NCBI RefSeq assembly: GCF_000166415.1
Contig: NC_014654.1
Coordinates: 124,001 to 188,000 of the forward strand
Source of the DNA: Halanaerobium hydrogeniformans
GTDB taxonomy: Bacteria; Bacillota; Halanaerobiia; Halanaerobiales; Halanaerobiaceae
Direction: 5' to 3'
Length of the DNA: 64,000 nucleotides
In this document: one piece after another, positions 42,250-60,396 of the stretch
Numbering within the stretch: position 1 is the first letter of the stretch
How the letters are laid out: every line of letters begins with the position of its first letter
The notes under the pieces: model-generated
What the model was told of the DNA's origin: nothing
The model's database searches: none
The model's input: the letters and a program-made list of their open reading frames with translations, nothing else
Program-made: the position numbers and the translations under genes

Positions 42250-43113
42250 ATGGCTGCTAGAGATTTTTATAGGGTGAAAAAAGTTTTTAATAATAATGTT
42301 ATTCTAGCAGAAAAAGCAGAAGAAAAACAGGAATACATTTTAATTGCTAAAGGAATAGGCTTTTCTAGCAAAAAAGGAGAAGAAATTGACAGGAGTAATT
42401 TTGAGATAGAAAAAGAATTCATTCCTTTAAGGGGTGAGAAAAGAAAAAATTATTTACAACTTTTAGAAGAGGTTGAAAGTAAAGTTGTTGCAGTAACAGA
42501 AGAAATAATAACTATGGTAGCTGATGAACTGGAAGAAGATATCAATCAGTATATTAGAATCGGACTTACCGATCACATAGCATTTACTCTTAAACGAATT
42601 AGAGATGGAATAGAAATAGCCAACCCTTTTTTAGCTGAAACTAGAACCCTCTATAATGAAGAATACAGTCTGGCTAAAAAAGCGGTAAAGATGATGGAAA
42701 AAAGTTTTAATCTAAAAATTCCAGAAGCTGAAGTAGGATTTATAGCTTTTCATATTCATGGAGCTAGAAGCAATAGTGAGGTTTCTAAAACAGTTCAAAA
42801 TACCTCTTTAATAAAAAAGCTAGTATCAAAAGTTGAAACTGAGATAGGCCATAAATTGGCTTATCAAAGTTTAAATTATGCCCGTCTGATTAATCATTTA
42901 CGTTTTGCTTTAGAAAGAATTGAGAATAATAATGATGATAATATAAACCCTCTACTTGATAATATTAAAGATAATTTTGCTGAATCATTTAATTTAGCTG
43001 CAAAACTGGCAGAAATTATAGAAAACCGTCTGGACTGTAAGATAACTGAAGATGAAAAAGGCTATCTCGCTATTCATTTGCAGCGTTTAAAAAGAGAAGT
43101 TGGAATTAATTAA
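42250..43113 (+). CDS. BglG/LicT/GlcT-type transcriptional antiterminator
   Basis: The 287-residue protein has an N-terminal CAT RNA-binding domain (residues 5-60, VKKVFNNNVILAE, GIGFSSKKGEEI) and two PRDs. PRD1 has His in LTDHIAFTLKRI and in FIAFHIHGA; PRD2 has NHLRFALERI and YLAIHLQRL. There is no EIIA/EIIB domain. Phosphorylation of the histidines by PTS proteins sets its RNA-binding activity. Nearly the same RAT sequence occurs before this gene and before the PTS gene downstream, so it most likely controls both. RBS AAGGAGG precedes ATG. Confidence 0.93.
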   Translation: MAARDFYRVKKVFNNNVILAEKAEEKQEYILIAKGIGFSSKKGEEIDRSNFEIEKEFIPLRGEKRKNYLQLLEEVESKVVAVTEEIITMVADELEEDINQYIRIGLTDHIAFTLKRIRDGIEIANPFLAETRTLYNEEYSLAKKAVKMMEKSFNLKIPEAEVGFIAFHIHGARSNSEVSKTVQNTSLIKKLVSKVETEIGHKLAYQSLNYARLINHLRFALERIENNNDDNINPLLDNIKDNFAESFNLAAKLAEIIENRLDCKITEDEKGYLAIHLQRLKREVGIN

Positions 43114-47315: not shown

Positions 47316-47344
47316 TTGACAAATAAAAATCAATAGATTATACT
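47316..47344 (+). promoter_or_regulatory. Strong promoter of the oxidoreductase leader
   Basis: TTGACA at 47316-47321, a 17-base spacer and TATACT at 47339-47344. Transcription would start near 47351, leaving a leader of about 320 bases before the gene. Confidence 0.85.
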
Positions 47345-47358
47345 TTAAATAAGTTAAA

Positions 47359-47373
47359 TGTTAATTGTTAACA
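47359..47373. promoter_or_regulatory. GntR-type palindromic operator
   Basis: TGTTAA-TTG-TTAACA covers about +9 to +23 of the predicted transcript. It matches TGTTAA-CTG-TTAACA at 54965-54979 and relates to the AACTGTTAACAGTT palindromes at 54121, 60273 and 60377. Position fits repression. Confidence 0.65.
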
Positions 47374-47572
47374 AAAACCGAATATCGTTTAACTCGTATG
47401 AAGCTTAGAGGAAAATACTAATTCATATATGAATTATGTTGCCAACGGGGGAAGGAAGTAAAACTTCTGAATCTGACCAGGTAGCCGAAACTTTAAGTGG
47501 ACGACCCTTTGAACTATAACTTTATGGGACTGAGGAAAATCATTTTTAATGATTTTTCTGAGTCCCTTTCTC
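47374..47572 (+). promoter_or_regulatory. Structured leader RNA ending in a terminator (riboswitch-like, class unknown)
   Basis: Between the promoter and the oxidoreductase gene lies a non-coding leader. It contains TAATTCAT/ATGAATTA (about 47419-47436), a GTTGCC/GGTAGC pairing (47439-47444 with 47480-47485) that encloses a GAAG-TAAAA-CTTC hairpin, and G-rich then purine-rich single strands (AACGGGGGAAGG). A 19-bp near-perfect terminator stem (GGGACT...AGTCCC, 47526-47566) with TTTCTC follows. The layout is aptamer then terminator. I could not match it to a known riboswitch. Slight likeness of CCAGGTA and GTGGACGA to glycine aptamers is not convincing, because the conserved GCCGAAGG is absent. 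The remaining bases to 47671 hold an orphan AGGAGGTGA at 47608-47616. Confidence 0.6.
47526..47572 (+). terminator. Terminator within the oxidoreductase leader
   Basis: GGGACTGAGGAAAATCAT at 47526-47543 pairs with ATGATTTTTCTGAGTCCC at 47549-47566, with one mismatch and one G-U pair, then TTTCTC. It precedes the gene, so it acts as an attenuator or ends a small RNA. Confidence 0.85.
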
Positions 47573-47671: not shown

Positions 47672-49603
47672 ATGGAAAAAAAGATAATGCAGGAGATAAA
47701 CATTAATGGTATGAAATTAAAAAATCGTATTTCTATGGCTCCAATGTATAGCAAATATGCAAGTGAGTCAGGAGAAGTTAGCGATAAATTAATTGAGTAT
47801 TTTGTTCGGAGAGCTAAAAATGGGGTTGGCCTAATTATATTAGAAAACACATGTATAGAATGGGAACAGGGTAGGATTTTCGGAAACCCTGTAGCAATAT
47901 ATGATGATAGGTTTCTGCCTGGTTTAAATGAACTTGTTAAGGCTGTTCATCGTTACGGTACTAAAATCATTCCAGAAATACATCATGTCGGTAGACAGGT
48001 ATTTAGCGATCACATAAATGGCAAGCCACCTTTGGCCCCATCAGCTGTAAAATCTAAAGTTGGTGGAGATATGCCTAAAAAAATGACAGAAGAAGAAATT
48101 ATATCAACCATAAAAGCTTTTGGGGATGCAGCTCTTAGGGCAAAAAAGGCTGGTTTTGATGGAGTTGAATTACATGGAGCCCATGGATATTTAATTCAAG
48201 AATTTATTTCACCTTTAACTAACCTTAGAAATGACAGATGGGGAGGAAGTTTTGAGAACAGATGTAGATTTGCTATAGAGATAATCCGTGAGATTAGAAC
48301 TAAGGTTGGAGAAGAGTTCCCGCTCTTTTTTCGTTTTAGTGCAGAAGAATCTTCACCTGGAGGATTAACTTTAGAAGAAGGATTAAAATACGCAAAAGTA
48401 TTGGAATCAGAAGGGGTAGATTGTCTTGATGTAACTCATGGCAATTATGAAAGTTTAAAACATTTTCCGATGCAGGGTGATAGTTTTGATCAGTTAATTT
48501 ATTTATCAGAAGCTGTAAAAAGTGAGGTTTCGATTCCAGTTATTGCAGTTGGTAGTCTTGGTATAAAACCTGAAATTGCCAACAATGTTTTAGAAGCTAA
48601 AAAGGCTGATCTAGTAAATATTGGGCGAGAACTTCTGGCAGATTCTGAGTTTGCCAAAAAAGTTGCCAATGACAATTTTGATGAGATTAGAACCTGTCTT
48701 AGATGTAATGAATGTACAGGTAGTGTTGATACAGGGAAATATTTAGCCTGTGCAGTTAATCCTGAATTAGGATATGAATATAAGGATTTATTGAAGTCAA
48801 GGCAAAAACGAAAAAATATAGTTGTTGTTGGTGCTGGGCCGGCTGGATTAGAGTATTCAATAACTGCTGCTAAATTAGGTCATAAAGTAACAATTTTAGA
48901 AAAAAATGATTACATTGGTGGGCTAGTTAAAATAGCATCAATTCCAAACTATAAAAATACTGAATTTAGTGGTTTATTAAACTATTACATGACCATGATT
49001 AAGAGATTAGGTATTAATCTTAATTTATCCATTAAAGCAACGGCAGAAATAATTGAAGAATATTCACCTGATCTAGCCGTGCTGGCAGTTGGATCAAAAG
49101 CAGTCAAATTACCGATAAAAGGTAATCAATATTCTGAGATAGCAGTTGAAAAATTGTTGGATAATGGACAGGGTCTGGGAGAAGATATCTGTGTTATTGG
49201 TGGTAGTGGTGTAGGAATTGATATAGCTATGTTTTTAAGAGAAAAAAATAAAAATGTTAAGATATTAGAGATGCAAGCAGAAATTGGTGGTGAGTTAAGT
49301 CCTATGTTATCTACTCATCTTAAAGAAGTCGTTAAAGCAAATAATATTGAGGTATTAACTTCACATTTGGTTAAAGAAATAAAAGAAAATAGTGTTATTG
49401 TAGAACATAATGGTCAGGAAAAAGAAATCAATTGTGACAATATCTTAAGTGCAGTTGGATTCAAAAATTTAGATACAACTGGACTAGAAAAAAGTTTAAA
49501 GGATAAAGATATAGAAGTTCAAACTTTAAGTGTTGAAAATGGTTGTGGTCATATAATGGATGCTACTAGAAATGGTTTTTGGAGCGCTTTGGAATTAGAT
49601 TAA
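47672..49603 (+). CDS. Old-yellow-enzyme-type FMN/4Fe-4S/FAD oxidoreductase
   Basis: ATG 47672 follows AAAAGAGGTG. The 643-residue protein has an OYE TIM barrel (residues 1 to about 335, with HHVGRQ, FDGVELHGAHGYLIQEFISP and NLRNDRWGGSFENR). A 4Fe-4S site follows with Cys342, 345, 348 and 360 (CxxCxxC-x11-C), and then FAD and NAD(P) domains (VVVGAGPAGLEYSITAA, ICVIGGSGVGIDIA). This is the 2,4-dienoyl-CoA reductase / enoate reductase / trimethylamine dehydrogenase architecture. The substrate cannot be told. It sits behind a regulated leader with a GntR-type operator. Confidence 0.9.
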   Translation: MEKKIMQEININGMKLKNRISMAPMYSKYASESGEVSDKLIEYFVRRAKNGVGLIILENTCIEWEQGRIFGNPVAIYDDRFLPGLNELVKAVHRYGTKIIPEIHHVGRQVFSDHINGKPPLAPSAVKSKVGGDMPKKMTEEEIISTIKAFGDAALRAKKAGFDGVELHGAHGYLIQEFISPLTNLRNDRWGGSFENRCRFAIEIIREIRTKVGEEFPLFFRFSAEESSPGGLTLEEGLKYAKVLESEGVDCLDVTHGNYESLKHFPMQGDSFDQLIYLSEAVKSEVSIPVIAVGSLGIKPEIANNVLEAKKADLVNIGRELLADSEFAKKVANDNFDEIRTCLRCNECTGSVDTGKYLACAVNPELGYEYKDLLKSRQKRKNIVVVGAGPAGLEYSITAAKLGHKVTILEKNDYIGGLVKIASIPNYKNTEFSGLLNYYMTMIKRLGINLNLSIKATAEIIEEYSPDLAVLAVGSKAVKLPIKGNQYSEIAVEKLLDNGQGLGEDICVIGGSGVGIDIAMFLREKNKNVKILEMQAEIGGELSPMLSTHLKEVVKANNIEVLTSHLVKEIKENSVIVEHNGQEKEINCDNILSAVGFKNLDTTGLEKSLKDKDIEVQTLSVENGCGHIMDATRNGFWSALELD

Positions 49604-49800: not shown

Positions 49801-51162
49801 TTACCTATCAGTTTTGGTGATCCATCTGATAAGTTGGGCCCAGGATTCGATAGGCTGACCTCTTGCTCCTTCCACTATCAGTGGTGGTTTATCATTAAAG
49901 GAACTATGAGGTTTTAAATAATTAAAATAGAGCTGATAAAGAGTTATATGAGTAAGTGCACCATCAAAAGAGCTAAAGCTTTTATGGCGTTTGTAATGGG
50001 CTTTATAAGTACCGAAAAACCTTTCAATGATGTTTTTATAAGGTCTGTAAATTTCATCTGAGTTATCATCGTTAGCAAATAGCCCCTTAAGTTGTTTGTG
50101 GTCAATATTGGTTTTCAAAAACACTTTAGCAGCATGGACAGCAGCTCTGTAAATTGGAGCCATATCAGTAACTAGAACAAATTTTTGGTCTTGATATTGG
50201 TCGATTATTCTTTTTAAAATGGTTATTGCACCTTTAGCGTCGCGATTTTTAGAAAGATGCTGAGCGATAACACAGCCATTTTCACCATCTATGGCAGTAA
50301 AAAGATAATGCCAGCTGCCTTTTATTTTAATATATGTTTCATCAACAGCAACAATACCAGATAAAGGCAGATCAAGCTCATTGATTTTAGGAGCAAGTCT
50401 GTAAGCTAAAGAGACAGTCCAATTTTGGATGGTTTGAGCTGAAGGTGAAACACCATAGGCAAGTTTAAGAGCTCTTTCAGCCTGTCTTAAAGAAAGACCA
50501 AGACTGACATAAAAGTCAATAGCCTTAGAGATGGTAAAGTTTCCATAGTGAGAATGATCAAGGTTAACAGGTTCTTTATCAGGTCTGGAAAGTTCAAGCT
50601 TATTGATATCAAAATTATAGGCTCTGTAGCGATAACGCTTATGTTCATTTTTCCATTTAGAACAGTCATCATTGCGGCATTTATACTTGGTAAAATGCTT
50701 GCGCTTTTTCTCTTTAGCAAGAGCATAGTTGCAGAAAGGACAGCGATATGTAGGGTGGTTCTTAGGTTTTTTAGGTTTCTTAGGAGCCCACTGATGTTTA
50801 CAGAGTTTACACTGGAACTTTTGGTATCCATCTGGATCATGACCGAAACTGTAGAGATATTTTTTGGGAGCTCCACATTGAGAGCACTCCTCAACCTTTA
50901 CAGTTAGAGGTTTATTGCGATTAACAGGCTGAATAGTTTCACCATTTTTTTCAGCTTCAGCTAGAATATCGCGATAGTCAACCTGATTATATTCTATAAT
51001 AGGTTGTGGGTCATCAAAACTGTTAAATTTAGTATAACTATCATCGAGTTTATTATTGGGTTCAAAATCAACCTGGAAAAGTCTGGCGAAAAAAAGATAG
51101 GTCAAAAGAACAAAATTCATGATAGGTTTAAGCAGGAAATTAGGTATTTTTCGAGAAAACAT
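49801..51162 (-). CDS. IS6/IS240-like DDE transposase with zinc ribbons
   Basis: The 453-residue product is intact. The N-terminal third has three cysteine pairs of zinc-ribbon type (CSQCGAPK...CKLCKHQW, CPFCNYAL, CRNDDCSKW). The catalytic part has IVAVDETYIKIKGSWHYLFTAIDGENG (first Asp), VLVTDMAPIYRAAV (second Asp) and NIIERFFGTYKAHYKRHKSF (Glu), very like IS6/IS240 transposases but nearly twice their length. RBS GGAAGG precedes the start on the minus strand. I could not identify terminal repeats or a target duplication, so element ends are not called. It splits the oxidoreductase from the cupin gene. Confidence 0.85.
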   Translation of the reverse strand: MFSRKIPNFLLKPIMNFVLLTYLFFARLFQVDFEPNNKLDDSYTKFNSFDDPQPIIEYNQVDYRDILAEAEKNGETIQPVNRNKPLTVKVEECSQCGAPKKYLYSFGHDPDGYQKFQCKLCKHQWAPKKPKKPKNHPTYRCPFCNYALAKEKKRKHFTKYKCRNDDCSKWKNEHKRYRYRAYNFDINKLELSRPDKEPVNLDHSHYGNFTISKAIDFYVSLGLSLRQAERALKLAYGVSPSAQTIQNWTVSLAYRLAPKINELDLPLSGIVAVDETYIKIKGSWHYLFTAIDGENGCVIAQHLSKNRDAKGAITILKRIIDQYQDQKFVLVTDMAPIYRAAVHAAKVFLKTNIDHKQLKGLFANDDNSDEIYRPYKNIIERFFGTYKAHYKRHKSFSSFDGALTHITLYQLYFNYLKPHSSFNDKPPLIVEGARGQPIESWAQLIRWITKTDR

Positions 51163-54076: not shown

Positions 54077-54134
54077 TTGACAAATTAGAAAAATAAAAAT
54101 ATAATATCTGTATACAAAAAAACTGTTAACAGTT
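54077..54134 (+). promoter_or_regulatory. Consensus promoter and operator of the second GntR gene
   Basis: TTGACA at 54077-54082, a 17-base spacer and TATAAT at 54100-54105 form a perfect sigma-A promoter. AACTGTTAACAGTT at 54121-54134 is a perfect palindrome starting about +10. A further CTGTTAAC half site lies at 54162-54169. The arrangement suggests autorepression. Confidence 0.85.
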
Positions 54135-54195
54135 AAAAGAAAACAAGATATTGCTAATGATCTGTTAACTTATAAGAAATTATGAGGTGCTAGAT

Positions 54196-54955: not shown

Positions 54956-55000
54956 AATCATATGTGTTAACTGTTAACACAACAGTTAACACATATGATT
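54956..55000. promoter_or_regulatory. 45-bp perfect inverted repeat containing GntR operators
   Basis: Arms 54956-54975 and 54981-55000 are exact complements of 20 bases around AACAC. The arm contains GTGTTAACTGTT, and the site TGTTAA-CTG-TTAACA (54965-54979) spans arm and loop, with a mirrored half on the other arm. It can act as terminator for the regulator gene, as operator for the importer, or both. The T tract is poor. Confidence 0.8.
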
Positions 55001-60218: not shown

Positions 60219-60286
60219 TTGACAAAGGAAGATTATTACGATATAATCAATTTAATATAATATTAATAATTAACTGTTAACAGTTA
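60219..60286 (+). promoter_or_regulatory. Consensus promoter and GntR-type operator of the dehydrogenase operon
   Basis: TTGACA at 60219-60224, a 17-base spacer and TATAAT at 60242-60247. TAACTGTTAACAGTTA at 60271-60286 is a perfect palindrome identical in its 14-base core to that at 54121-54134, placed at about +17 to +32. Confidence 0.85.
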
Positions 60287-60370
60287 TTAAAGAAGAAAAT
60301 AATAATAATAAAAATAATTATTTTGGATACTACTAATATTAAAGAAGAGCTGCTATATAAATATTTTTTT

Positions 60371-60396
60371 ATCATTAACTGTTAACAGTTAATGAT
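60371..60396. promoter_or_regulatory. Second operator palindrome before the dehydrogenase operon
   Basis: A perfect 26-base palindrome centred on the same TTAACTGTTAACAGTTAA core, with ATCA/TGAT ends. It lies 70 bases before the start codon and about 100 bases after the first operator, spacing that would allow looping. Confidence 0.8.

Follow-up and report, generated by a model that had tools for sequence, protein, structure and literature searches.

What kind of RNA lies ahead of an OYE-type oxidoreductase gene of Halanaerobium hydrogeniformans, and which molecule might it sense? We analyzed a 64,000-nucleotide stretch of this genome (NC_014654.1, positions 124,001 to 188,000; the genome is a single contig of 2,613,117 bases), hereafter termed the window. 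Within it, a folded RNA of about 150 nt, enclosed by a promoter and a terminator, precedes a forward-strand gene for an OYE/BaiCD/FadH-like flavin oxidoreductase (PF00724 and FAD/NAD domains; 47672-49603, start probably the ATG at 47672). The original prediction had described this leader as an aptamer with an expression platform that could not be assigned to a known class, and had seen only a faint likeness to glycine aptamers. The layout was borne out, and the faint likeness proved to be the key clue. Overall, we estimate a probability of roughly 0.7 that 47393-47566 is a cis-acting ON riboswitch controlling transcription termination, derived from a type-1 singlet glycine riboswitch, with a rewritten core and a ligand that is most likely not glycine.

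The leader is stable and well delimited. The sigma-70-type promoter (TTGACA-17-TATACT, 47316-47344, forward strand) matches 11 of 12 consensus positions and stands where it had been placed before; it is also kept in the aligned leaders of H. polyolivorans and the Halanaerobium MAG M55B147. The folding energy of 47350-47572 is -57.8 kcal/mol, compared with a mean of -40.7 for shuffled sequences (z = -4.2), and none of 200 shuffles was as stable as the native sequence. The leader also offers no convincing candidate for a leader peptide. An Rfam search of 47351-47572 and a collection of homologues examined for covariation had been suggested as checks. The former gave no match at the gathering score; over 411 bases the Glycine model still gave none when E was relaxed to 10, other models yielded chance matches only, and a search of the whole genome with RF00504 found only the copy before gcvT.

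The homologue collection was informative. A blastn search of 101 genomes recovered three further copies, which an exact 18-mer scan assigned to H. polyolivorans, Halanaerobium sp. M55B147 and H. salsuginis. Across 84,980 genomes, the exact core 18-mer occurred in three Halanaerobium genomes and at two unrelated sites, which we rejected as homologues because the similarity did not continue into the RNA. blastn also gave weak matches in other genera, but these fell in unrelated sequence and were likewise discarded, and the RNA patterns were found neither in the plasmid collection nor in IMG/VR. The known variant set consists of four sequences, three of them close relatives. The homologues were aligned over the promoter, the inverted repeat TGTTAATTGTTAACA, the RNA core and the terminator.

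The origin of the leader was revealed by two covariance models. The first, R1, was built from the four Halanaerobium homologues. In 38 genomes of the order it recovered, besides these four, 14 full-length matches (E 1e-9 to 4e-3), every one of which is an Rfam glycine riboswitch aligned end to end. Similarly, when R1 was run on 398 genomes from the phylum, the sole further strong matches were canonical glycine riboswitches, and across 59 genomes of the class no score fell between theirs and those of the four variants. For the reciprocal search we trained a second model, R2, on canonical glycine singlets only, 22 sequences with no variant among them. With filters off, its match to the window element (47393-47539) reached 77 bits (E 6e-19), compared with 13 bits for the next-best match in the window; genome-wide, the element ranked second (E 2.5e-17), behind the gcvT switch. 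The other three variants scored 90-92 bits, and a weak R2 match in another genome (G002, L085) was rejected as resembling coding sequence. The covariation check pointed in the same direction. In the joint alignment with canonical singlets, 90.2% of cells were paired and 29 of 36 pairs had changed on both sides, a level reached by none of 500 shuffles, and structures slid along the alignment dropped to 27-53%. Covariation within the four variants alone was not significant because their core barely varies, so the covariation case rests on the joint alignment. The leader is therefore a relative of the glycine riboswitch by descent that has kept the scaffold, sharing with RF00504 the P1, P2, P3/P3b and kink-turn linker architecture.

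The retained parts, all on the forward strand, can be followed along the RNA. The P0 or kink-turn leader arm (47394-47402; bulge UAU, then GA) was assigned from the literature, and its UGAA never changes among the variants and hardly ever among canonical glycine singlets. We discarded a U-A pair at 47397-47501 as the closure of P0, since canonical members have G.A at that position, in keeping with the kink-turn bulge. P1 (47403-47410 with 47491-47498) is supported by covariation: each of its 8 pairs has changed on both sides among 24 distinct sequences, including a G-C to A-U change within the variants. It is followed by the J1/2 segment of the core (47411-47415), which reads GAAAA in place of the GAGAG of canonical aptamers. 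The P2 hairpin (47419-47436; stem 47419-47425/47430-47436) differs in stem sequence yet pairs in all four homologues. Its strands are the TAATTCA/TGAATTA pairing of the original prediction, and the other pairings named there exist as well, (T)TGCC/GGTA(G) being P3 and GAAGT/ACTTC being P3b. P3/P3b with the predicted ligand-binding core spans 47440-47483 and carries substitutions at 47444, 47446, 47451, 47475 and 47477. After the 3' strand of P1, the GGACG linker (47499-47503) forms the second kink-turn arm, and its GGAC is invariant in variants and canonical singlets.

The ligand pocket departs from this pattern of retention. All four variants share the changes 47413 G>A, 47444 G>A, 47446 A>C, 47475 C>G and 47477 U>C, together with a purine inserted at 47476; additional core changes lie at 47415 (G>A), 47451 and 47439-47440. 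The near-invariant glycine-binding core of RF00504 (GAGAG, GCCGAAGG, CUC-UCAGGC) is accordingly not preserved. Both among 19 canonical sequences from Halanaerobiia and among 57 canonical aptamers from Bacillota, this core hardly varies, a uniformity that is partly by construction, the canonical set having been gathered with glycine models; the R1 searches, which lean toward the variants, recovered no intermediates either. The change at 47413 stands against 56 of the 57 canonical aptamers, the variant base at each of the five core positions occurs in 0-1 of the 57, and of seven diagnostic bases the canonical aptamers carry 0-1 and the variants 6-7. We take A68, G69, the A70-U80 pair and U81 of the V. 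cholerae switch to be equivalent to 47446, 47447, 47448-47475 and 47477, respectively, on a mapping made via the conserved motif with a V. cholerae sequence that fits the published residue identities. In that switch, these residues lie at the ligand (PMC12060979). By our mapping, two ligand-near residues (A68 and U81) and the closing pair would thus be changed, with G69 kept. Within the variants, 35 of 39 core columns are invariant versus 42 of 79 elsewhere (p = 7e-5), which argues against a decaying element.

Could such an RNA still sense glycine, its core changes compensating one another? We regard this as unlikely, although it would fit the shared scaffold and ghost aptamer and the retention of 47447, the equivalent of G69, along with most of the remaining core. 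It has to accommodate the altered U81 and A68 equivalents, the change of G66 to A, the insertion, and the loss of the pair closing the pocket, where 47448-47475 has become G.G. The genomic setting argues against it as well. Each of the four variant genomes has one separate canonical glycine riboswitch, which in the window genome precedes gcvT-gcvH-gcvPA-gcvPB (names taken from translations) and serves this operon. The genes downstream of the variants are not those of glycine cleavage or transport and have no glycine link: the OYE oxidoreductase gene in the window genome, H. polyolivorans and M55B147, and a hydroxypyruvate-isomerase-like gene in H. salsuginis. Canonical singlets also occur in pairs: two complete copies lie about 400 bases apart in one genome (L047, G050:C3, about 77031-77583), forming a tandem of singlets, and a similar pair was seen at L058.

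The leader also retains the switching part of its ancestor. A type-1 singlet is defined by a 3' ghost aptamer (PMC6944388), the part to which GGACG-CCUUUGAAC...GGGACUGAGG corresponds in the alignment. The corresponding antiterminator helix, CCUUUGAAC...GGGACUGAGG (47506-47535, forward strand), is predicted in all four homologues when the 3' arm of the terminator is absent. The terminator hairpin (47526-47566, forward strand) folds, and relatives have homologous hairpins with T-runs. Positions 47526-47535 are at once the 5' arm of the terminator and the 3' strand of the ghost helix, an overlap present in 4 of 4 homologues, so that the two structures are mutually exclusive, as is characteristic of transcription-termination riboswitches. 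The strong terminator that had been proposed before the gene thus stands as a hairpin with a long stem, but its own U-tract is poor (TTTCTC), which is why a consensus scan missed it; two relatives are better at this point (ATTTT and ATTTTTTT).

An attenuator that needs no ligand, or a small RNA acting on its own, either of them derived from an old glycine riboswitch, would fit the RNA's own promoter and terminator and the different downstream gene in H. salsuginis. We nevertheless consider this improbable, and the small RNA of the original prediction has lost ground accordingly, because the ghost helix and the terminator with which it competes use the same strand in all four homologues; moreover, few parts are as conserved as the core loops, as expected for a cis binding site. 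The further proposal of a wholly new, unrelated riboswitch class, which the empty Rfam searches, even at relaxed thresholds for Glycine, had seemed to favor, is refuted as regards descent by the whole-length reciprocal matches with glycine singlets and has next to no chance of being right. Antitermination of the BglG/LicT type (a LicT-like gene lies at 42250-43113) was another candidate, which we rejected on the ground of the leader's homology to glycine riboswitches.

For the riboswitch with an altered pocket, we propose the following model. A type-1 singlet glycine riboswitch, comprising aptamer, kink-turn linker and 3' ghost aptamer, was the ancestor of 47393-47566, and its binding core was rewritten on the retained scaffold in one branch of Halanaerobium. 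Without ligand, 47526-47535 would be taken by the terminator and transcription would stop before the OYE gene. A ligand bound in P3 would let the aptamer dock on the ghost-aptamer helix, holding this strand and permitting read-through. The B. subtilis glycine switch is an ON switch acting through a terminator (PMC5666159), and by analogy ligand binding should most likely favor the ghost helix and read-through here. The ligand itself would be another small molecule than glycine, linked to the OYE/cupin catabolic operon, and a GntR/FCD operator over the start region would add a second layer of control.

The earlier suggestion that GntR-type control is stacked on the RNA has gained a probable operator, the inverted repeat TGTTAATTGTTAACA (47359-47373, forward strand), through which such control could act. 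The repeat is identical in the two relatives sharing the OYE operon. Its exact sequence occurs once in the genome, with one-mismatch copies at 54965-54979 of the window and at G000:C1:196619, the latter between an M24-family gene and an acylating aldehyde dehydrogenase gene. Palindromes resembling the 47359 site lie on both sides of the second GntR gene. Overall, TGTTAAyWGTTAACA-like palindromes number 11 matches in the window versus 2 expected, probably marking a GntR regulon; they were observed at 47359-47373, 54124-54138, 54965-54979 and 60261-60394, neighboring GntR/FCD genes, a ribose-type ABC transporter and a pyruvate-dehydrogenase-like operon.

The OYE gene is followed by a cupin gene, an AEC-type transporter gene and two GntR/FCD regulator genes. 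A transposase-like ORF (49801-51162, reverse strand) lies between the OYE and cupin genes and may cut the operon; these genes are adjacent in H. polyolivorans and M55B147, so the insertion is lineage-specific. Beyond the window, a large catabolic cluster (L122, G000:C1:183000-202000) encodes two ribose-type ABC systems, a MocA-type dehydrogenase, a TIM-barrel isomerase, an SDR, an M24-family hydrolase, an acylating aldehyde dehydrogenase and a succinyl-CoA-synthetase-like pair. Among 12 genomes searched, the four that have a close OYE homologue are also the only ones to carry the M24 gene, and M24 and OYE may therefore serve one pathway. The H. salsuginis isomerase and the TIM-barrel gene of this cluster are not orthologous, so the neighboring genes do not point to a single ligand. 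In another family (G046), an OYE orthologue with 60% identity has no such RNA upstream; this OYE-cupin pair (L072, G046:C106) shares its contig with an M24 gene and lies beside lipA, lipB, an aldehyde ferredoxin oxidoreductase gene, malic enzyme genes and a gene for a LarA-type malate racemase.

If our reading is true, a metabolite aptamer has switched its ligand within one genus while the ancestral glycine copy was retained in the same genome, and old and new pockets could be compared directly. The riboswitch would also be a pointer to the substrate of the uncharacterized OYE/cupin catabolic operon. Since the carriers include cultured species, a ligand search is practical, and searches with such models could reveal further variants missed by Rfam.

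How does this element relate to known systems? With the type-1 singlets of RF00504, such as the one before gcvT in the same genome, it shares the kink-turn, P1, P2, P3/P3b, the GGAC linker, the ghost helix and the order of these parts. In contrast to them, several near-invariant core nucleotides are changed and one purine is inserted, and it falls below Rfam detection and does not precede glycine genes. Weinberg et al. (2017, PNAS), as described in PMC9481103 and PMC6944388, reported variants of the glycine riboswitch whose cores are mutated and which reject glycine. Going by these descriptions, the principle is the same, and a mutated core on a retained glycine scaffold is what we find here; those variants are, however, described as mostly metagenomic. 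Our literature search found no published report of such a variant in Halanaerobium. Glycine variants that reject glycine were thus known, and a Halanaerobium variant whose specificity, judged from its sequence, is likely altered would be new. We think it probable that it represents a non-glycine riboswitch class that evolved on the glycine singlet scaffold within a single Halanaerobium branch, occurs in cultured species and escapes Rfam. Variant classes on old scaffolds have precedents in the 2'-dG and adenine classes derived from guanine riboswitches and the ppGpp and PRPP classes derived from ykkC (PMC7266159). These likewise keep the old fold, have few pocket substitutions and stand in a new gene context, and differ from the Halanaerobium element in using other scaffolds and having known ligands.
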